Shown here piece by piece: positions 6,839-64,000 of a stretch of 64,000 nucleotides of DNA. The notes under the pieces are model-generated. The model was not told where the DNA came from. It saw only the letters and a program-made list of their open reading frames with translations, and did not search any database. The first letter of the stretch is position 1, and every line of letters begins with the position of its first letter. The stretch is from the NCBI RefSeq assembly GCF_002834295.1, contig NZ_PISP01000001.1, forward strand, positions 682,001-746,000, in the 5' to 3' direction. The position numbers and the translations under genes were made by a program. Origin of the DNA: Rhodohalobacter barkolensis (lineage in GTDB: Bacteria; Bacteroidota; Rhodothermia; Balneolales; Balneolaceae).

Positions 6839-8956
6839 ATGAAAGAAGATTTTAAAAGCGTAGAGTTTGCACCCGGTAAAACGATTTCGGTAGAAACCGG
6901 TCGTTTAGCCAAATTAGCGGATGGTGCAGTAATGGTAAGAATGGGCGACACAATGGTACTTTGTACGGTTGTTAGCGCAAAAGAAGCTAAACCGGGACAG
7001 GATTTTTTCCCAATGGTTGTAGATTTAAGAGAGAGTTTCACTGCTGCCGGTAAATTTCCCGGTGGATTTATGAAAAGAGAAGGCCGTCCTTCCGATGGTG
7101 AAACATTAGCCAGCCGTTTAATTGACAGAAGTTTACGTCCGCTATTCCCTAAAGGTTATTATAACGATACACAGTATATCTGCCAGGTATTTTCATCTGA
7201 TGGACAAAACGAAGCTGATGTATTAGGAGCTTTTGGTGCTTCTGCTGCGACACACATTTCTGATATTCCATTCGACGGTCCGATGGCTCAGGTAAAAGTT
7301 GGACGTATTGATGGTGAATTCATCATCAATCCAACTATTGATGAGCTTGAAAAAAGCGACATTGACATGATCGTTGCCGGTACTGCCGAGAGCGTGATTA
7401 TGATTGAAGGCGAAATGGGTGAGATCAGCGAAAAAGAGATGCTGAGCGCTATTAAAGAAGGTCACAAATCTATTATTAAGCTCTGTGAATTTCAGGAAGA
7501 ACTGAGAAATGAATTTGGCGTTGAAAAGCGTGAATTTACTCCTGAAGAAGAGGATGAGGATCTGAAAGCTAAAGTTGCTGAGAAGGTCGGAAACCGATTG
7601 AATGAAATTGTAAGCATTGGACTTGGCAAAGAAGATTTTAATGGCAAAGTCAGTGAGTTAAAATCTGAAGTGAAAGAAGCTATTACTGCCGAAGAAGGAT
7701 ATGAAGAAGCGGGCAGCGATATTTCTTCCATTTATGGAGACATGGTAAAAGATGCGCTTCGTAATAATATTCTTGAAAATAGAAAACGAATTGACGGACG
7801 TTCACCGGAAGACATTCGAGATATCTGGACACAGGTTGGATATCTGCCAAGAGCACACGGTTCTGCAATTTTTAGCCGTGGAGAAACTCAGGCACTTGTC
7901 TCTGTAGCTTTGGGTACAAAGCGAGATGCTCAGAGTGTTGACACACTTTACTACGAGGAAGACAAGAAGTTTATGCTTCACTACAACTTCCCTCCATACT
8001 GTGTAGGTGAAGCAGGATTTATGAGAGGTCCGGGCCGACGTGAAATTGGCCACGGTCACTTGGCTGAAAGAGCGCTTAAAAAAGTTCTTCCTAAGTTTGA
8101 AGATTTCAGCTACGTAATTCGTGTACGATCAGACATTACCGAATCTAACGGCTCATCTTCTATGGCCTCCGTTTGCGGTGGTTCCATGGCACTGATGGAT
8201 GCCGGTGTTCCAATGCCAAAACCTGTTGCGGGTATTGCAATGGGAATGATTGTTGGAGAAGACAAATCAGTTGTTCTTTCTGATATTCAAGGTGAAGAGG
8301 ATTTCATGGGCGACATGGACTTCAAAACTGCCGGTACCGCTGATGGTATCACAGCTACTCAAATGGATATGAAAGTTCAGGGAATCAGCTTTGAAGTTCT
8401 TGAAGAAGCACTTGAACAAGCTCATAAAGGTAGAATGCATATTCTTGAGAAGATGGCCGAAACCATTTCCAAGCCTAAAGAGAATATCTCTGAGTACGCT
8501 CCACAATTTGTCAACATGACAATTTCCGGGGATAGTATTGGCGCTGTGATTGGGCCGGGCGGTAAAGTGATTCAAACACTCCAGAAAGAGACAGATACAG
8601 AGATCTGGATCGAAGAGGATGAAGAAGGTAAAGGTCAGATTACAATTAGCGCAGACAGTCTTGAGAAGGCTGAAGCTGCCAAGAAACGTATTCAAGCCGT
8701 TGCCGGTGAACTCGATGAAGGAGCGACCTACAAAGGAACTGTGAAGGCGATTAAAGAGTACGGAGCATTCGTTGAGATTGTACCCGGAAAAGAAGGTCTG
8801 CTACACATTTCTGAACTGGAACACGGACACGTTAAAAAAGTGGAAGATGTGATTTCTGTAGGTGACGAAATTGACGTGAAACTTCTGAAAGTTGAGCACG
8901 GTGGAAAACTAAGACTTTCCAGAAAGGCTCTGCTTCCAAAGCCGGAAGAAAACTAA
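6839..8956 (+). CDS. pnp: Polyribonucleotide nucleotidyltransferase (PNPase)
   Basis: Phosphorolytic 3'-5' exoribonuclease of mRNA decay. The 705 residues comprise two RNase PH-like domains separated by a helical linker (for example GGFMKREGRPSDGETLASRL in the first; SMASVCGGSMALMDAGVPMP in the second), a KH domain near 560-620 (GAVIGPGGKVIQTLQKETDT) and a C-terminal S1 domain (YKGTVKAIKEYGAFVEIVPG, GLLHISELE). Length is standard. It follows the rpsO terminator after about 100 bp, the widespread rpsO-pnp pairing, and has its own intrinsic terminator. Confidence 0.98.
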   Translation: MKEDFKSVEFAPGKTISVETGRLAKLADGAVMVRMGDTMVLCTVVSAKEAKPGQDFFPMVVDLRESFTAAGKFPGGFMKREGRPSDGETLASRLIDRSLRPLFPKGYYNDTQYICQVFSSDGQNEADVLGAFGASAATHISDIPFDGPMAQVKVGRIDGEFIINPTIDELEKSDIDMIVAGTAESVIMIEGEMGEISEKEMLSAIKEGHKSIIKLCEFQEELRNEFGVEKREFTPEEEDEDLKAKVAEKVGNRLNEIVSIGLGKEDFNGKVSELKSEVKEAITAEEGYEEAGSDISSIYGDMVKDALRNNILENRKRIDGRSPEDIRDIWTQVGYLPRAHGSAIFSRGETQALVSVALGTKRDAQSVDTLYYEEDKKFMLHYNFPPYCVGEAGFMRGPGRREIGHGHLAERALKKVLPKFEDFSYVIRVRSDITESNGSSSMASVCGGSMALMDAGVPMPKPVAGIAMGMIVGEDKSVVLSDIQGEEDFMGDMDFKTAGTADGITATQMDMKVQGISFEVLEEALEQAHKGRMHILEKMAETISKPKENISEYAPQFVNMTISGDSIGAVIGPGGKVIQTLQKETDTEIWIEEDEEGKGQITISADSLEKAEAAKKRIQAVAGELDEGATYKGTVKAIKEYGAFVEIVPGKEGLLHISELEHGHVKKVEDVISVGDEIDVKLLKVEHGGKLRLSRKALLPKPEEN

Positions 8957-9068: not shown

Positions 9069-10322
9069 ATGCAGACAACTGAATCGATTACCGAAGTTAA
9101 AAAAACGGTCCTTTCAAACGGATTGAAAATTGTTACAGAAAATATACCGGGTGTGAAAAGTATAACGGCCGGATTTTGGGTGAAAACGGGCAGCAGACAT
9201 GAATCAGACAAACTGGCCGGTGTAACGCACTTTTTAGAGCACATGCTTTTTAAAGGCACTGAAAAACGAAGCTCATATGATATCGCACAGAGCATGGAGT
9301 CAGTTGGTGGATATCTGAATGCATTCACATCAACGGAGTACACCTGTTACTACTCCCGATGTCTTGATACGCAGATTGATAAAGCGATGGATGTATTGAG
9401 TGATATGATTCAGAACTCACAGTTTCCGGAAGAAGAGCTTCAAAAAGAGAAGAAAGTTGTTCTCGAAGAGATGAAAATGTATAAAGATAGTCCCGATGAT
9501 TATATTTTTGAACTCTTTAGCGGAAATGTATTTAAGGATCATCAGGTGGGGCGACCCATCATTGGCTTCGAAGAGACTGTCTCATCATTTACACGTCAAA
9601 ATTTATTCGATTACATGGATAACCGCTATCGGCCGGATAATATGTTGATTGCAGTTGCCGGTCACGTGGATCACGATGAAGTAATCTCACTGATCCAGGA
9701 AAAACTGGAATTGAAAAATTCAGAGCCAACGGTTGATGAAGAACAACCGCTCACTTCATATGATAAGTTTCAAATTGAAGAGAGCCGGGTTATTGAACAG
9801 ACTCATATGGTAATGGGGCGAAGAGCCTTGAACTACGATCATCCAGACAAATACCTGCTGCTGCTGGCTAATACAGTTTTGGGTGGGGGAATGAGTTCCA
9901 GGCTGCATCAGAATATCCGTGAAAAATATGGATACTGTTATGCAATCGGTACGTTTAACCAATCTTATACAGACACCGGGATGTTCGGAGTTTATATCGG
10001 CACGGATAAAAATTACGTATCTCATGTCCGGGATTTAATTTCCAAAGAGTTTGAAATTATTCAGAATGATAAGGTAGGGGAGAAAGAGTTGAGTGAAGCA
10101 AAATCACAGCTCAAAGGTAAACTGCTGCTTTCGCAAGAGAGTACGAGCAATCGTATGAATCGACTAGCAAAAAGCGAACTCTACTTTAACCGTTTTGTAA
10201 CTCTGGATGAACTGGTTGAAAATATAGATTCTGTTACAGCCGGTGATCTTTTGACTTTTTCTCAGAATTTCTTTGACGCAGATCAATTTTCTGAAGCATT
10301 GTTGACTCCGGAAAATCGGTGA
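9069..10322 (+). CDS. M16 family zinc peptidase (processing-peptidase-like)
   Basis: Zinc metalloprotease of the pitrilysin/insulinase family. The inverted zinc motif HFLEH is at about residues 54-58 (GVTHFLEHMLFKGT), with the downstream third ligand expected at the Glu of KEKKVVLEEMKMYKD. The C-terminal inactive-half signature GGGMSSRLHQNIREKYGYCY is present, so the 417-aa chain carries both half-domains, as in YmxG/PqqL-like and mitochondrial processing peptidase beta proteins. No signal peptide is visible. The pnp-M16 neighbourhood is common in bacteria. Substrate unknown. Confidence 0.9.
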   Translation: MQTTESITEVKKTVLSNGLKIVTENIPGVKSITAGFWVKTGSRHESDKLAGVTHFLEHMLFKGTEKRSSYDIAQSMESVGGYLNAFTSTEYTCYYSRCLDTQIDKAMDVLSDMIQNSQFPEEELQKEKKVVLEEMKMYKDSPDDYIFELFSGNVFKDHQVGRPIIGFEETVSSFTRQNLFDYMDNRYRPDNMLIAVAGHVDHDEVISLIQEKLELKNSEPTVDEEQPLTSYDKFQIEESRVIEQTHMVMGRRALNYDHPDKYLLLLANTVLGGGMSSRLHQNIREKYGYCYAIGTFNQSYTDTGMFGVYIGTDKNYVSHVRDLISKEFEIIQNDKVGEKELSEAKSQLKGKLLLSQESTSNRMNRLAKSELYFNRFVTLDELVENIDSVTAGDLLTFSQNFFDADQFSEALLTPENR

Positions 10323-57892: not shown

Positions 57893-58309
57893 TTAATGGT
57901 GATGGCGGTAGGTTACAATTCTTTGCCACATTAGTATTGCAAAGATGAGGATTGAGCTCAGAATCAGGCCTCTGCTTGCAATGGAAACAAAAAAGTGTGT
58001 TTGAAAGAGTGTAGTTATAACCAAAAGCATCAAACCGAAATTATAGAAACCAAAAACCAGCCAGCCGGCCCAACCTGGTCCTCTTCTGGGTTCTGATAAT
58101 TTTTTGGGAAACATCCAGTACGCTGTTCCCATTGCCAGTTGTACGACCCATCCCCAGATAGCCATTTCGTAATGAGCCGGCAGCAGTGCCCAAATAAAAG
58201 GGTGAACCGCTATCACTTTATGAATCAGGATAAGGGTGCCCACGCTTACTGATAGCAGCAGGTAGAGGAGAGATGATCGAATCATCCAGATGGATTGAGA
58301 GGGCATCAT
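57893..58309 (-). CDS. Four-helix membrane protein, haem-copper oxidase subunit I-like fragment
   Basis: 138-aa integral membrane protein with four predicted helices. Helix 2 carries HYEMAIWGWVVQLAMGTAYW followed by MFPKK, a His-x7-W/Q-x3-G-WMFP pattern shared with the neighbouring paralogue; this motif is typical of small proteins annotated as cbb3-type oxidase subunit I-like or NnrS-like. A single haem- or Cu-binding His per subunit suggests it works as an oligomer or with its paralogue. C-terminus is His-rich (TYRHHH). It lies in the nitrite/NO cluster, so a role in NO chemistry or electron transfer is inferred. Only 8 bp from the next paralogue gene. Confidence 0.75.
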   Translation of the reverse strand: MMPSQSIWMIRSSLLYLLLSVSVGTLILIHKVIAVHPFIWALLPAHYEMAIWGWVVQLAMGTAYWMFPKKLSEPRRGPGWAGWLVFGFYNFGLMLLVITTLFQTHFFVSIASRGLILSSILIFAILMWQRIVTYRHHH

Positions 58310-58317
58310 AACAATAA

Positions 58318-58740
58318 CTATCTTTGTTTTTTACGGTTTTGAAGCCTTGGCCAAATCTCGATGGTATATAGAATCACGGCGATCCACTGCAACAACGCTG
58401 ATACAACAATACTGATTTGAATAACTTTGCCATCCTTTAAAAGTGGAATAAACGGTTCAGATAAAAATCGAAGGATCAAACCGATATTTAAAGTCCAAAA
58501 TGTTGCCCAAACCAAAATTGATTCTCTTCTTTTTTTGTCCCGGTGTTTGCGGGGAAACATCCATACTGATACCCCGATGATCAACTGAGTAATCCAGCCC
58601 ATAACCAGCATATGCAAATAGATTGGCAATAAAGAGAGTTTACTGCTCATTAAAGGGATTTCATCCAGAAAGACGAGCGTAATCCCTAATACAAAGTAGA
58701 TAACACCGGCTTTTATAAACCATCGGCTTGTAGTCGGCAT
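58318..58740 (-). CDS. Four-helix membrane protein, paralogue of the downstream gene product
   Basis: 140 aa, four hydrophobic helices. Helix 2 motif: HMLVMGWITQLIIGVSVW followed by MFPRK, aligning with HYEMAIWGW... of the next gene (same His, GW, Q, G and WMFP positions), so the two genes arose by tandem duplication. Loops are positively charged (RKHRDKKRRES), fixing the cytoplasmic side. It lacks the full set of His ligands of a haem-copper oxidase, so if it binds haem it must use few ligands or share them. Function inferred only from context. Confidence 0.75.
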   Translation of the reverse strand: MPTTSRWFIKAGVIYFVLGITLVFLDEIPLMSSKLSLLPIYLHMLVMGWITQLIIGVSVWMFPRKHRDKKRRESILVWATFWTLNIGLILRFLSEPFIPLLKDGKVIQISIVVSALLQWIAVILYTIEIWPRLQNRKKQR

Positions 58741-58776: not shown

Positions 58777-59262
58777 TCATCTCACCAGCGAAACAGCAAA
58801 GTAGAGAATGATCAGCCCCAAGATTAAATTGATCCGGCCACCCCAGCTCGAGGCCTTGCGATATCTGTAAGTAGTTTCACTATTGGGATCTTTCTTCATT
58901 AAATCTGCGGCTTTTGGGCCGAGCCAGAAATCATGAATCGCTGCTACAATTAACATCAAGGAGAATGCGATCAATTTACTGAATAGGGTTGATCCATACT
59001 CACTTTGCCAGAATGTGACTGAAATCAGATCCTGTACGCTGAAGCCCCGGCCAAGCAGGGCGGTGATTCCGGTAATTATGAGAATAGGGAAGAGTAGCCA
59101 ACTCAGTCGGCTGAAACGTGTGCCCAGTTCAGTAAATAGAAGTCCGCGTTGTGTAGCAAGTTTTTTTCGGGTTGCAGGTACCAGAACGGCAGCCGTAAAG
59201 ATTATACCGCCAATCCAGAAACAAACAATGGTGATGTGGACAAACACTGACCAAAAATACAT
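58777..59262 (-). CDS. CopD-like membrane protein
   Basis: 161 aa with four helices: FVHITIVCFWIGGIIFTAAV (His and conserved WIGG), LSWLLFPILIITGITALL, LIAFSLMLIVAAIHDFWL and GGRINLILGLIILYFAVSL. The pattern VHI...FWIGG, a central G-x-T and the late HDFWLGP match the CopD/PcoD-like copper-resistance/DUF2269 superfamily of small membrane proteins proposed to carry copper or haem. It sits downstream of the RIC gene and just upstream of the two four-helix membrane proteins, so it may help handle copper for NirK or the cupredoxins. Substrate unproven. Confidence 0.8.
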   Translation of the reverse strand: MYFWSVFVHITIVCFWIGGIIFTAAVLVPATRKKLATQRGLLFTELGTRFSRLSWLLFPILIITGITALLGRGFSVQDLISVTFWQSEYGSTLFSKLIAFSLMLIVAAIHDFWLGPKAADLMKKDPNSETTYRYRKASSWGGRINLILGLIILYFAVSLVR

Positions 59263-59349
59263 GAACCGACGGGGTTTGTTGTTGAACTGAGATGAAATCG
59301 TTTCGACCTTTCAAAACCGAAACGATGAATTATTATTACAGCAATCAAA

Positions 59350-60090
59350 TCATAAATCAGATAGAAGTGTCTCTGCTTTTTTAAATAAGATGTTATTCTC
59401 GAGGTGAACGTGCTGATGCAGGTCCTCTTCAAATCCGGCCAGGTTCTGGTAAAGTATTTGATAGGTTGCACATGCATCTGCAGGAGGTGTAAAATCGTTG
59501 CTTAGAGAACGGATCTCTTTCATGATATCGCCGGCACCTTCATGATCATCAATCATGTGATCGAGTTCTGCACGTAGCTGATTTGCCAATTTCTCATTTA
59601 CTTCTTCACCGTTTTTAATCTGAAGATGTATATTTTTAATCAATGGAAAAACAGTCTGCTCTTCATCTTGGAGGTGTTGAATCAGCTCATTGGAAAGCTT
59701 TGCAAACAATTGATAGATCTCGATATTTTCCGGGTGACGCTCTCCATGAACGTTGGCAACTTTCGCAGCATACACCAAAATTTCCTCCGTTTTGGTACGC
59801 ACAAAGGTGTGATGATTATTGATGATGTAGTCTATCAAAAAGTCGGGTTCCCATAGGTTAAACTTCTGATTGACGGTTGTTCCACCGGTAGGCATTGTGC
59901 TCAATTTTAAAGTGACCTGGTCGGGATTGATACCTTTACGTTCGCAAACCTCTCCAAGCGGTAAACCGCCTCCACAGCAGAAGTCAATTCCAAACTCTTT
60001 GAAAACACCGGCAGCGTGGTAGTTATCAGCAACAATATCACCAATGTTTCTCTGTACTAAAGTTGTTGGGTCGTTATTCATCATGGTCAA
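59350..60090 (-). CDS. ric: Iron-sulfur cluster repair di-iron protein (RIC/YtfE/ScdA)
   Basis: Cytoplasmic haemerythrin-like protein that repairs Fe-S clusters damaged by NO or oxidants. N-terminal ScdA_N/DUF542 domain with the Cys pair and glycines (GIDFCCGGGLPLGEVCERKG, about 34-53); then a four-helix haemerythrin domain with ligands in DYIINNHHTFVRTKTE, NVHGERHPE, QHLQDEEQTVFPLI, ELDHMIDDHEGAGDIM and LHQHVHLENNILFKKAETLL. 246 aa is standard. It directly follows the Rrf2 regulator gene (30 bp), the arrangement expected for NO-stress control. Confidence 0.96.
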   Translation of the reverse strand: MTMMNNDPTTLVQRNIGDIVADNYHAAGVFKEFGIDFCCGGGLPLGEVCERKGINPDQVTLKLSTMPTGGTTVNQKFNLWEPDFLIDYIINNHHTFVRTKTEEILVYAAKVANVHGERHPENIEIYQLFAKLSNELIQHLQDEEQTVFPLIKNIHLQIKNGEEVNEKLANQLRAELDHMIDDHEGAGDIMKEIRSLSNDFTPPADACATYQILYQNLAGFEEDLHQHVHLENNILFKKAETLLSDL

Positions 60091-60120: not shown

Positions 60121-60531
60121 TTAAATTTTAATATTTCGATACTCTGAAAAATCACTCAATGTACTTTCCTTTATAAACTTAAACGTGATATCTGATAAAA
60201 ATTCTAAGTCTTTAAACAAAGCGGACAGTTCCAATTTTGTATCCGGTTTTCCTTTATCGGTGTACATTTCAATAAATGAGGGATTGGAAGCCTGAATGAT
60301 GTCAATTAAGAAAATTTCTGATGCAGGTCTGGCCAGTAAAACCCCTCCATTTGATCCTCGTTTTGATCTGACCAGACCGGCTTTTTTCAGTTTTTGGAGT
60401 ACCTTAACCAGATACTCATTGGGCATATCCAGTTCACGACTAATCCTCTTGGTAGACACCGGAGTGTCACCAGATTGAAGAGCTAAATACTCACAAGCTC
60501 TTAACCCATATTTACCTGAATTGGATAGCAT
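60121..60531 (-). CDS. Rrf2-family transcriptional regulator lacking the Fe-S cysteine cluster
   Basis: 136 aa from ATG 60531; a longer frame to 60624 would overlap the cupredoxin gene. N-terminal winged HTH: MLSNSGKYGLRACEYLALQS and ISRELDMPNEYLVKVLQKLK, then the wing LVRSKRGSNGGVLLARPASE, characteristic of Rrf2/IscR/NsrR. The three-Cys cluster-binding loop of NsrR/IscR is absent: the only Cys is residue 13 in the HTH, and the corresponding region reads NPSFIEMYTDKGKPDTKLEL. It probably regulates ric and the nitrite genes, but by some non-cluster signal. Confidence 0.9.
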   Translation of the reverse strand: MLSNSGKYGLRACEYLALQSGDTPVSTKRISRELDMPNEYLVKVLQKLKKAGLVRSKRGSNGGVLLARPASEIFLIDIIQASNPSFIEMYTDKGKPDTKLELSALFKDLEFLSDITFKFIKESTLSDFSEYRNIKI

Positions 60532-60566: not shown

Positions 60567-61034
60567 TTACTGTACGCGCAAGATTCCGACCATTCCAGCC
60601 ATGTAGTGTCCGGGGAAGGTGCAAACAAAGTCATAGTCGCCTTTGGTTTCAGGAACTGTAAACTCCATCTCTACTGATTCACCGCCGCCCAGCATTGGTG
60701 TGTTAAAGATCACCTGGTCTTCATAATCAGGTGCGATGAACTCGTTATCTCTGGCCGACATGGAAGCCTGTGCAAAAGCATCGGTATCTGTTCCAAGGTC
60801 AACAATGGCAATGTTGTGAGACATAGTCTGGGGTGGCATATCACTTTTAGTCTCAAATACGATTTTGATGGTTTCACCCGGTTCAGCTTCAATCAGGGTT
60901 ACATCAAATTTCATATTGTCCATTCCTTTGATGTTTACGGTTCGTATATCATCGCTTTCGTTAGATGCAAATGCCGGTATAGCGATAAGGAGTGCTGTAA
61001 ATAGTGTGATAATTGTTTTAATTGTACGTTTCAT
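60567..61034 (-). CDS. Azurin/auracyanin-like cupredoxin
   Basis: Periplasmic type 1 copper electron carrier, 155 aa with a Sec signal peptide (IKTIITLFTALLIAIPAFA). The mature domain starts TVNIKGMDNMKFDVTLIEAE and has the copper ligands His in QTMSHNIAI, then Cys, His and Met in FVCTFPGHYMAGMVG. The insertion TDTDAFAQASMSARDNEF and the spacing match azurin-type proteins. Likely electron donor to NirK or acceptor from the quinol-oxidising chain. Located between the second cupredoxin and the Rrf2 gene. Confidence 0.93.
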   Translation of the reverse strand: MKRTIKTIITLFTALLIAIPAFASNESDDIRTVNIKGMDNMKFDVTLIEAEPGETIKIVFETKSDMPPQTMSHNIAIVDLGTDTDAFAQASMSARDNEFIAPDYEDQVIFNTPMLGGGESVEMEFTVPETKGDYDFVCTFPGHYMAGMVGILRVQ

Positions 61035-61066: not shown

Positions 61067-61471
61067 TTAGTTGTTTTTGTCCGATGATCGGACGGTAAAT
61101 TTTCCTTTGTGTCCCATACGTTCGTGTGGGCGGCAGAAGTAGTTGTATTCACCGGTTACATTTGGGCGGTAAAACCACTCCTGACCTTTTTGAAGCAGAT
61201 CTGAATCAAATGATTCAGCCGACTCCGGAATCCCAAGTTCTCTGCGATTATCCGGATGGTAGGCGGTAACGGTGTGTATGCCTTCCTCTACCACAAACCT
61301 CAGCAGATCACCTTTTTGAATATCTGCTTCAGCCGGAACAAACCTGGAATTTTCCATTGATCCCACAATTCGAATGGTAACTGTATCGGCTTCAGCATTT
61401 TGATTGTTTTGTGCATAAAGTCCGCTAACAGTCAGTACTAAAAGGGTGATATGTAAAACAATTAATTTCAA
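61067..61471 (-). CDS. Plastocyanin-like cupredoxin
   Basis: 134 aa with signal peptide (LIVLHITLLVLTVSGLYA, then Q). Type 1 copper ligands: His in EEGIHTVTAYHP, and Cys, His, Met in YNYFCRPHERMGHKGKF. The Cys-to-His and His-to-Met spacings are those of plastocyanin/pseudoazurin-type proteins, different from the neighbouring azurin-like protein; SMENSRFVPAEADIQKGD is the typical strand before the first ligand. The ATG overlaps the end of the SCO gene by 4 bp, so the two are translationally coupled. Putative electron shuttle for nitrite reduction or copper carrier. Confidence 0.92.
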   Translation of the reverse strand: MKLIVLHITLLVLTVSGLYAQNNQNAEADTVTIRIVGSMENSRFVPAEADIQKGDLLRFVVEEGIHTVTAYHPDNRRELGIPESAESFDSDLLQKGQEWFYRPNVTGEYNYFCRPHERMGHKGKFTVRSSDKNN

Positions 61472-62112
61472 CGGGTTAGACTTTCAATAAGAGTGATATC
61501 GTCAGCCAGATTTCCGATAATACCTTCAATCCTGTGGCTGATATTACCGTGTTTATCCAGAACTGTTATCAGGTTTGAGTGATCAAAATGTCCATCACTG
61601 CGCTCCCGATACTGAACTCCCAGGAGGGAGGCAAGTTGCCGGATATCCATTTGATCAGCCGTTACAAAATGCCAGTCGGGCAGATCGAGCTGTTCATATT
61701 CGGCATACTCTTTCAGTGCTTGGGGTGTGTCGTTTTTGTAATCAAAACTTACAGCCAGAACATTGATGTTTTCCTGAGTCTCTTCACTCAGTGAGGAGTA
61801 TAGCTTCCAGGTTCGCTGAATCAGCATCGGACAGGTTTCCGTACACTTTCCGTAAAACATTACCACTATGAGTGGCTGTCCGGCAAAATCTTTGATCTGT
61901 ACGGATTCACTGTTTTGGTTGACCCATGTTGTCGGAATCTGATGCAGTGACTCGGAATGATTGATTGCTTCAGAGTCAAGCTCTTTCATCTGCTCCATGT
62001 CATGCTCGTGACCATGATCATGTCCATCTCCCTGACTGTGCTGAGCCGTTGCTGTAACCGCTGATGCGGATAGCACAAATAAAGTAATGAGTGTTGCTTT
62101 GAAAACTTTCAT
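61468..62112 (-). CDS. SCO1/SenC-family copper chaperone with His-rich N-terminus
   Basis: Thioredoxin-fold copper metallochaperone, 214 aa. Signal peptide (TLITLFVLSASAVTATA, then Q) is followed by a His-rich stretch (HSQGDGHDHGHEHDMEQM) that could bind copper or zinc. The SCO motif YGKCTETCPM (CxxxC, about 89-98) and the third ligand His in FDHSNLITVL (about 175) complete the copper site. Probable function: metallating NirK or a terminal oxidase, or thiol reduction. In an operon with the cupredoxin (4-bp overlap) and the NirV-like gene (1 bp gap). Confidence 0.94.
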   Translation of the reverse strand: MKVFKATLITLFVLSASAVTATAQHSQGDGHDHGHEHDMEQMKELDSEAINHSESLHQIPTTWVNQNSESVQIKDFAGQPLIVVMFYGKCTETCPMLIQRTWKLYSSLSEETQENINVLAVSFDYKNDTPQALKEYAEYEQLDLPDWHFVTADQMDIRQLASLLGVQYRERSDGHFDHSNLITVLDKHGNISHRIEGIIGNLADDITLIESLTR

Positions 62113-62113
62113 A

Positions 62114-62905
62114 TTAAATCTCCATCTTATTGCTGTTCATATCGTAAGCGCATCGAAAACCGAGCATACCTGTTGAGCTTGTAGGCTTAAAACTCATTCG
62201 TGTGATGTATCGGATTGACATTGCGTAACTGTACACAGATGCATCACCCTGCATTCGGCCTACGGTTCCGCAATCGAGTGAGATATCATCGGCAATGGGA
62301 GGATTGAAATCTTCGACCCACTCCATAATCAGACCGAAAAGATCTTTGACTCCATATCGATTTTCGATACCCGTTGATCCCACATCGCTTTTGATCTTTG
62401 TATCCACCGCGGAGTACCACCCGATCAGCTCACTACTGAAACGGTTCGCCTCAAGGTTTGAATCGAAATCCATCGCCTGAGCAGCATATTCCCATTCGTT
62501 TAAAGTAGGAAGCCGACCTCCGTTCCATTCGCAATAAGAATTAGCGGCATACCAGGATACTCTAGTAACCGGTCTGTCCATTATCTCATCACTACCCGGG
62601 TTTAAATCATATTCCCAATGACGCAGATAATCACTGCCGGCAAAAAGTGGAGAGATGGAAGAGCGCTGCCACTCCGGATTTTCCTTCAAAAACTCAAGGT
62701 AATCTTCGTTTGTAACAGCGGTCTCATCAATTTTAAAAGGCTCCACCTGATGCGGTTCGCCCACAACTTCCGGCAAGACAGAGTGAAAGCTGCCTTCCGG
62801 TATGGCAATAGCCTGATTCTGTGCTTGCACAACCGGCAGTTGTATAGCCAGTAAAAAGCCAAGAACCGCAGCTACTTTATGATATGTGTTGAAAGGCAGT
62901 TTCAT
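62114..62905 (-). CDS. nirV: NirV-like formylglycine-generating-enzyme-family protein
   Basis: 263-aa exported protein (signal peptide HKVAAVLGFLLAIQLPVVQA) with the SUMF1/FGE fold: PFKIDETAVTNEDYLEFLKE, DRPVTRVSWYAANSYCEWNG, GRLPTLNEWEYAAQAM, DLFGLIMEWVED and GMLGFRCAYD. The pair of catalytic Cys expected between the MEWVED and GFRCA segments of true FGEs is not seen (that region reads GRMQGDASVYSYAMSIRYIT), as is typical of NirV-type proteins linked to nirK. It probably assists NirK maturation, a known association rather than a proven mechanism. Starts 4 bp after the nirK stop. Confidence 0.9.
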   Translation of the reverse strand: MKLPFNTYHKVAAVLGFLLAIQLPVVQAQNQAIAIPEGSFHSVLPEVVGEPHQVEPFKIDETAVTNEDYLEFLKENPEWQRSSISPLFAGSDYLRHWEYDLNPGSDEIMDRPVTRVSWYAANSYCEWNGGRLPTLNEWEYAAQAMDFDSNLEANRFSSELIGWYSAVDTKIKSDVGSTGIENRYGVKDLFGLIMEWVEDFNPPIADDISLDCGTVGRMQGDASVYSYAMSIRYITRMSFKPTSSTGMLGFRCAYDMNSNKMEI

Positions 62906-62909
62906 CTTT

Positions 62910-64000
62910 CTATTGTCTTGGACCGGCTTTTAGTGTACCTGTCGCACCTTTTTCTGCATCGGCAAATTCGTGGTCGATCAGGGTGTATTTTCCTTCCTCA
63001 GGCACGATGAATTCAACAGTAGCTGAACCGGACGCGCCTAAAAGCACAGTCTGCATGCCTCGCATTTCATTGTATGGATGTCCCTCTAACCAAACACGGT
63101 CAAAAATAGCACCAATCACATGGAAACTGGATGTCAGGCTTGGTCCGTTGTTTGAAAAGTGAATGCGCACCCGTTCGCCTTCATTGGCTGTTAGGGGCTG
63201 ATCGTGCAGAATAGTTTGGTGGCCATTGAATACAACATGAGATGGCTGTTTGGTCTGAGCGCCTTCAAAATCGTACTGATAGAGGTCGCCGGCTCCTTTT
63301 TTAAGGTAGTATTCTGATTGAACGACTACGTACTCCTCATCAACACGATCATCTGTTTCGTAACCATCTTTTGGGGAAACAACAACGACACCGTGCTGAC
63401 CCATTGCAGTGTGCATCAATACACTTGGAGTTCCACAGTGGTAGATGTATGTCCCTGCATAATTTGCATACCAGTCAAATGAAATGGTTTCACCGGGAGC
63501 AATGGTTCTCCACTTATCATCTTTTGCTACAGTACCGGAGTGGAAGTCCATAGAATGTGGCATTGGCATGATGGATGGCTCTGCACCCATATAATCGTTT
63601 TCTGAGATCTGTTTCAGGTAATCTGAGCCTTCCAGACCGGGCTTGGTGATAGTGACCATCTCATCCGATCGGTTTTTCATTGTGAAGGTAATTTTATCAC
63701 CCTCTTTTACGTGAATGACCGGACCCGGTACCATTCCGCCAAATGTCCATGCCCGAAAACGAACGCCATCAGCGACTTCAATTTCCTGAGTAAAGGTGTC
63801 CAGGCGAATTTCGTGGTGCTTATTGCCTTCATAGTCAAGCGGCTTTAGATGAGGTAACATGGTTACATACTCGCCAACAACCGGAGGGCCGTCGTAATCT
63901 TCTGTATAAACTTCTGCTTCGGGCATACCAAAAGTCAAGCCGTCAATGGTGTATTCCTGTGATTGTGCTTGCAGGTTCATCAAACCTGCGGTTATAAATA
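62910..64000 (-). CDS. nirK: Copper-containing nitrite reductase NirK, 5' end outside window
   Basis: Periplasmic trimeric enzyme reducing nitrite to NO in denitrification. The frame is open to the window edge (upstream residues FITAGLMNLQAQS look like the end of a signal peptide), so the true start is beyond base 64000; 363 codons are visible. Two cupredoxin domains: the first has the type 2 Cu ligands in PHSMDFHS (Asp and His) and the type 1 site YHCGTPSVLMHTAMGQHG (His, Cys, His, Met); the second has the remaining ligands in SSFHVIGAIFDRVW. The 'YHCGTPxVLMH' form marks the class II NirK branch rather than the Alcaligenes/Achromobacter type. First gene of the run. Confidence 0.96.
   Translation of the reverse strand, partial: FITAGLMNLQAQSQEYTIDGLTFGMPEAEVYTEDYDGPPVVGEYVTMLPHLKPLDYEGNKHHEIRLDTFTQEIEVADGVRFRAWTFGGMVPGPVIHVKEGDKITFTMKNRSDEMVTITKPGLEGSDYLKQISENDYMGAEPSIMPMPHSMDFHSGTVAKDDKWRTIAPGETISFDWYANYAGTYIYHCGTPSVLMHTAMGQHGVVVVSPKDGYETDDRVDEEYVVVQSEYYLKKGAGDLYQYDFEGAQTKQPSHVVFNGHQTILHDQPLTANEGERVRIHFSNNGPSLTSSFHVIGAIFDRVWLEGHPYNEMRGMQTVLLGASGSATVEFIVPEEGKYTLIDHEFADAEKGATGTLKAGPRQ

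Follow-up and report, generated by a model that had tools for sequence, protein, structure and literature searches.

We analyzed a window of 64,000 nucleotides from Rhodohalobacter barkolensis (contig NZ_PISP01000001.1, positions 682,001 to 746,000). A run of genes, all on the reverse strand, extends across one end of this window. At its head lies the gene of a 124-amino-acid protein, for which no Pfam match was obtained. It is followed by genes for a NirK-like copper nitrite reductase (62910..64000, with its start about 40 bases past the window; L035:8911-10041), a formylglycine-generating-enzyme-like (FGE-sulfatase) protein (62114..62905), an SCO1/SenC protein (61468..62112), a plastocyanin-like cupredoxin (61067..61471), an azurin-like cupredoxin (60567..61034), a regulator of the Rrf2 family (60121..60531), the iron-sulfur repair di-iron protein RIC (59350..60081), a CopD-like membrane protein (58777..59262) and two small proteins with some weak resemblance to COX1. 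The FGE-like, SCO, cupredoxin and CopD-like assignments derive from profile matches. The ric product exceeds the cut-off of the NCBIfam family FeS_repair_RIC (E 4e-69), and the NirK-like protein scores below its equivalog cut-off (196 of 296 bits). Only 36 bases separate the azurin gene from rrf2, and no operator-like site is seen at the start of rrf2 itself; co-transcription of rrf2 with the operon is thus likely.

Other elements of the run deserve mention in their own right. The two small membrane proteins (57893-58309 and 58318-58740) are found beside ric across the genus, and each weakly resembles a stretch of COX1, not the same one in the two cases. Full genes of the COX1 family were found at just two places in the genome (C1:409200-410525 and C3:177700-179061). 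A hairpin in the gap between ric and copD (59297-59326) is present in three Rhodohalobacter genomes. Its stem varies in sequence on both sides, the z-scores are -2.1, -4.0 and -2.8, and it is perhaps an mRNA stability element. A short CCGC-loop-GCGG hairpin with a non-conserved loop lies just before nirK in R. barkolensis (L035 ~10065-10080) and in a second species (L037 ~7580-7592).

The rrf2 gene and its orthologues

The rrf2 product, P0001, is a protein of 136 amino acids read from an ATG start with no internal stop. It matches the Pfam Rrf2 family (PF02082; E 5.2e-26, 91.8 bits, cut-off 30) and passes the NCBIfam cut-off for TIGR00738 (88.2, cut-off 73.3), confirming the family assignment made in a preliminary description of this DNA. 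That description also considered the helix-turn-helix (HTH) and wing to be kept, and indeed a complete Rrf2 fold is predicted, comprising a winged HTH with an RGSNGG tip (RGxxGG) and a long dimerisation helix (residues 103-122). The protein contains a single cysteine, and we considered whether others might be hidden by an annotation or sequencing error. A wrong start does not hide any: the upstream in-frame TTG (60624) would overlap the azurin gene and brings no extra cysteine, and the orthologues begin at the same methionine. A frameshift is unlikely, as stops interrupt both alternative frames across the C-terminal half and two other genomes likewise lack the cysteines.

Full-length close matches to P0001 were found in two others among 58 genomes searched, both from the genus Rhodohalobacter: G009 (about 44-45% identity) and G019, R. 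halophilus JZ3C29 (about 41-42%). Statements about this group refer to three sequences only, P0001 and its orthologues P0002 and P0003. The order SCO, cupredoxin, azurin, rrf2, ric, copD is kept in both genomes; G009 is a metagenome-assembled genome with 9% contamination, and its contig starts inside the SCO gene, so that nirK and the promoter lie beyond view. A profile of the three orthologues retrieved no further close member from 394 genomes of the phylum (a draw without G009). In this search, G019 and R. barkolensis (G000), both part of the profile, scored E 1e-71 or better, and the next hit, at 2.4e-22, was a protein with cluster cysteines. A scan of genome contigs returned 18 loci, the orthologues ranking first (E 6e-31 and 5e-28) and the remaining loci at 6e-17 or worse.

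Judged from its substitution pattern, the cysteine-free rrf2 gene is under constraint. Between G009 and G019, dN is 0.29 and dS 1.51; in both comparisons with the window gene, whole-gene dS is saturated. Residues 1-85 are identical at 61 of 85 positions in the G009/G019 pair, with a dN/dS of about 0.15, and the part after residue 85 at 25 of 54, with a dN/dS of about 0.25. Across orthologue pairs, the C-terminal half retains 11-25 identical residues of 50-54. The reading-head helix (residues 36-47; 60391..60426) conforms to [MLI][PS]NEYLVK..QK in the three proteins, in which NEYLVK and the wing glycines are invariant. The protein nevertheless evolves faster than others of the same three genomes, with pairwise identities of 41-62%, against 60-72% for RIC, 86-90% for azurin and 87-95% for a four-cysteine Rrf2 protein, Rrf2A.

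Loss of the cluster ligands

We aligned P0001 with other Rrf2 proteins (85 rows; the partial matches L054 and L056 are left out of this table and of the tree). The ligand columns C7, C92, C99 and C105, numbered after the four-cysteine Rrf2 protein P0004 described below, hold residues other than cysteine in all three orthologues, each from a different species. None of the three connector cysteines of NsrR is present in any of them (0 of 3 columns), and the place of E. coli NsrR Asp8 is taken by K7 in P0001 and I7 in the orthologues. The IscR signature Cys-X5-Cys-X5-Cys-X2-His is absent as well, for P0001 has neither cysteine nor histidine after residue 13. The RsrR ligands E8, H12, C90 and C110, as listed in PMC9218516, are also missing at the aligned places in this one-cysteine protein. 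The connector (residues 86-102; 60226..60276), where the cluster cysteines of the relatives sit, contains no cysteine or histidine. A substitute conserved metal site in the C-terminal half was considered and rejected: no cysteine, histidine, aspartate or glutamate is invariant after residue 85, the invariant set in this half being S85, K99, L105, L109, F119, K121, T124, L125, F128 and R132. The preliminary description had stated that the three cluster cysteines are missing and that a cluster cannot be bound in the usual way, allowing that close homologues with these cysteines would make the protein a normal NsrR. Both statements stand, and neither of the two orthologues has the cysteines.

The sole cysteine, C13 (codon 60493..60495), was placed by the same description in the HTH itself. 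The protein does have one cysteine only, but this residue lies in the first helix (predicted residues 4-18), ahead of the HTH proper (helices 27-34 and 38-50). It is a cysteine in all three orthologues and in none of the 82 other rows, where S, V, A, M, I, T or L is found instead.

The structural model of P0001 has the complete Rrf2 fold, with a mean pLDDT of 87.5 and a poorly defined connector at the ligand region (low confidence at about residues 91-100). Among Rrf2 chains, structural overlap is best with CymR (TMq 0.69-0.75, rmsd 2.8-3.3) and lower with NsrR (0.61-0.67); Foldseek ranks RsrR first by E-value. CymR of Bacillus subtilis and Staphylococcus aureus, a cluster-free Rrf2 dimer, is also among the best sequence matches. 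However, P0001 reaches only 59.1 of the 195 bits required by the NCBIfam CymR model and has no link to cysteine metabolism. P0001 resembles NsrR in standing beside ric and a nitrite reductase, but it lacks the three ligand cysteines and Asp8 and scores 45 against an NsrR threshold of 182.

Rrf2 proteins that dispense with a cluster are known. PMC9218516 describes CymR, the monothiol SifR/YwnA and the dithiol SaiR and HypR, as well as two large sequence clusters with no conserved cysteine or histidine, so that a lack of cluster cysteines is no exception within the superfamily. SifR/YwnA, like P0001, has a single conserved cysteine and no cluster ligands according to the same text; its cysteine, however, caps the N-terminus of helix 5 within an HxxPNPxC motif, which is absent from P0001. 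The Rrf2 protein NsrR-Th of Thermus thermophilus likewise belongs to a denitrification cluster, with a ScdA-domain protein as its neighbor. It is no precedent for cysteine loss, as it keeps the three cysteines and binds an iron-sulfur cluster (PMC5748679). Metagenomic work has recorded Rrf2 genes adjacent to clade II nosZ, with no mechanism given in the available part of the report (PMC6264515). A literature search, to which most subscription papers were external, found no published description of a cysteine-free Rrf2 protein in denitrification loci of Balneolota.

A four-cysteine paralogue, its putative operator and a second cysteine-free clade

The R. barkolensis genome contains four Rrf2 genes: P0001, a pair with cysteines at C1:1387-1389 kb, and the four-cysteine P0004 (C6:349154-349618), located directly before a cytochrome c gene and nosZ. 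The same four-cysteine gene precedes cytc-nosZ in all three genomes that carry the cysteine-free gene, each time with an operator-like site before it. P0001 shares superfamily, genome and type of operon with these nos-linked proteins of Balneolota, but they keep C7, C92, C99 and C105, and their reading head is ISFHFLTK instead of NEYLVK. A related group of Rrf2 proteins from sister genomes, clade B, is encoded together with ric and nosZ in a single cluster, into which the nirK operon of G003 and G005 continues; these two genomes have no Rrf2 gene between azurin and ric. No clade B member was found among the Rrf2 matches and loci of the three genomes carrying the cysteine-free gene.

Cysteine content also varies among these relatives. 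P0004 and most Balneolota relatives have a conserved fourth cysteine in helix 1 (residue 7), one residue before the place of Asp8 in ScNsrR and E. coli NsrR, which may be a cross-subunit cluster ligand. The nos-linked proteins of G005 and G016 (L153:10882-11295 and L086:1495-1923) have lost the middle ligand cysteine only (GLPGCG to GLPIFQ), and are possible two-cysteine intermediates.

A palindrome, TTAAGA-N8-TCTTAA, occurs twice upstream of the nirK operon, both in R. barkolensis (L035:10502 and 10556) and in G019 (L037:7090 and 7144). The same palindrome is found before cytc-nosZ and before the four-cysteine rrf2 gene and, in sister genomes that do not encode the cysteine-free protein, upstream of four-cysteine Rrf2 genes, nosZ, ric and nirK. 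Sites were scored with a matrix built from ten operator sites, which themselves score high by construction; sites outside the matrix were found before the Rrf2 gene of G005 (27.0 bits), G004 (25.4), G008 (25.4) and G013 (23.7), and before nirK of G005 (one of its two sites). With a 16-site matrix, 472,704 shuffled positions yielded nothing that scored over 19 bits. Simple pattern counts do not stand out. At up to 3 mismatches, the R. barkolensis genome has 9 sites and the reversed control pattern 16, which amounts to noise apart from the best three, and at up to 2 mismatches the total in 28 genomes of the genus is not above control. The argument thus rests on the position of the sites and not on their number.

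Since the operator is present in genomes without the cysteine-free gene, it is most likely that of the Rrf2 proteins with retained cluster cysteines. We also considered the twin sites as a mark of the cysteine-free protein, but G005 has twins without that protein. No convincing second operator specific to P0001 emerged when the island's intergenic gaps were searched for palindromes in common. According to the preliminary description, this protein, if not constitutive, must have some other way of sensing NO, nitrite or redox. The presence in the same genome of P0004, whose probable operator stands at the nirK-operon promoter, argues otherwise: the NO sensor for this operon is probably the separate four-cysteine paralogue.

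Cysteine loss has also occurred elsewhere in the order. In another family (f3), the Rrf2 gene directly before cytc-nosZ encodes a protein without any ligand cysteine; of 128 Balneolales genomes, 9 carry it (loci L009, L012, L017, L021, L029 and L167-L175). This clade spans five genera, as judged by table codes, and the other four matches in the search were cluster-type proteins. The shared operator precedes the cysteine-free gene in all nine genomes and cytc-nosZ in eight of them, five of the nine having also served as seed of this search. In the five genomes of this clade that were checked, the other Rrf2 match is in each case a four-cysteine protein with the ISFHFLTK head.

In the tree of the 85 rows, the two cysteine-free groups are placed apart and each forms one clade, the window group on a long branch (the label '3Cys' in this tree is loose, L044 and L053 lacking one ligand column). 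The tree does not support an origin of P0001 as a recent duplicate of the nos-linked four-cysteine Rrf2, among which it is not nested. Long branches make this placement unsafe, however, and AU tests on 79 rows, with six long-branch rows removed, do not reject a join with clade B (p 0.35) or clade A (p 0.33). Cluster-free Rrf2 proteins are already known; less expected was a further cysteine-free clade, placed apart from the first and standing at nosZ in a different Balneolales family, with the operator kept and a four-cysteine paralogue alongside in the genomes checked.

Possible roles of the cysteine-free protein

We tentatively favor the view that P0001 is a cluster-independent Rrf2 DNA-binding protein made within an NO-controlled nirK-azurin-ric operon, with the paralogue acting as sensor. 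P0004 would bind operators of the TTAAGA-N8-TCTTAA type in front of its own gene and of cytc-nosZ, and two more at the nirK-operon promoter. Damage of its cluster by NO would open the nirK operon, and the cysteine-free protein would then be made along with NirK and RIC. This protein would bind DNA without a cluster, its amount setting its activity, and would most likely limit or time the expression of this operon or of some other target. In support of this scheme, the ligands are lost in all three orthologues, the DNA-binding part is constrained, the fold is nearest to that of CymR and the operator was found independently of P0001. The 'constitutive' option of the preliminary description is close to this explanation and remains live. 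On the other side, the reading head of P0001 is unlike that of the four-cysteine paralogues and no specific operator was found for it, so that an action on the nirK operon itself can only be proposed. Furthermore, according to PMC9338935, ScNsrR with its three cysteines changed to alanine cannot dock on DNA. Ligand loss can thus also mean loss of binding, and cysteine-free forms must have an altered connector, as CymR has.

A protein blind to any signal does not account for the invariant C13. This residue might be nitrosylated or oxidised, shifting the packing of helix 1 and the HTH and releasing DNA, in a manner comparable to the lone surface thiol of S. aureus CymR. The sensing thiol of the latter is Cys25, and C13 is not at that place. 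Its position also differs from that of the SifR cysteine, and its column is otherwise variable, with a residue that looks half-buried rather than reactive. Although C13 has persisted in proteins that share as little as 41% identity, and although monothiol sensors exist in the family (SifR, PMC9218516; S. aureus CymR, PMC9338935), the conservation concerns three sequences only, and we regard such a sensor as unlikely. Rather more doubtful is a partnership in which P0001 would pair with the four-cysteine Rrf2, or compete with it for the same operators, a sensor and its blind copy together setting a threshold. Four-cysteine and cysteine-free proteins do occur as pairs in all genomes of the window group and in all those examined from the second clade, where the shared operator precedes both the cysteine-free gene and cytc-nosZ. 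Against this, NEYLVK in P0001 differs from the SFHFLTK of its four-cysteine paralogues.

P0001 might instead be controlled by a partner protein, RIC or another operon product, as CymR of B. subtilis is by CysK. According to PMC9338935, this CymR binds DNA only when complexed with O-acetylserine thiol-lyase. CymR, itself without a cluster, is the nearest fold by overlap, and ric is the immediate neighbor in 3 of 3 genomes; adjacency is the sole hint of a partner, however, and the poorly conserved C-terminal half does not point to a conserved partner surface. We consider such control improbable. Least credible is that the gene is a relic on its way out, having lost both binding and sensing and being kept in the operon by chance. 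Its evolution is much faster than that of ric and azurin, and it is absent from sister genomes, but the frame is intact in three species, dN is well below dS in both halves in the G009/G019 comparison, and the NEYLVK head and wing glycines have not changed.

With the cluster-independent regulator as the preferred reading, we may also speculate, with considerable reserve, that a design with two regulators recurs in the denitrification loci of Balneolales. An NO-sensing four-cysteine Rrf2 would control a blind cysteine-free copy that acts on the same or a linked promoter, and the ratio of the two would give the expression of nirK and nosZ a threshold or a memory. Such a design would have had two independent origins, one at nosZ within a different family and the other at nirK-ric within Rhodohalobacter.

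Rrf2 proteins encoded beside denitrification genes are routinely taken for NsrR-type NO sensors. Neither P0001 nor the nosZ-linked clade can hold the cluster, and a cysteine-bearing paralogue elsewhere in the genome, together with its putative operator, would account for NO control, a warning against naming such regulators by their neighborhood. The nosZ-linked clade, in which the operator has been kept and the ligands lost, is a clean experiment of nature on how an Rrf2 protein acts after it has lost its cluster.
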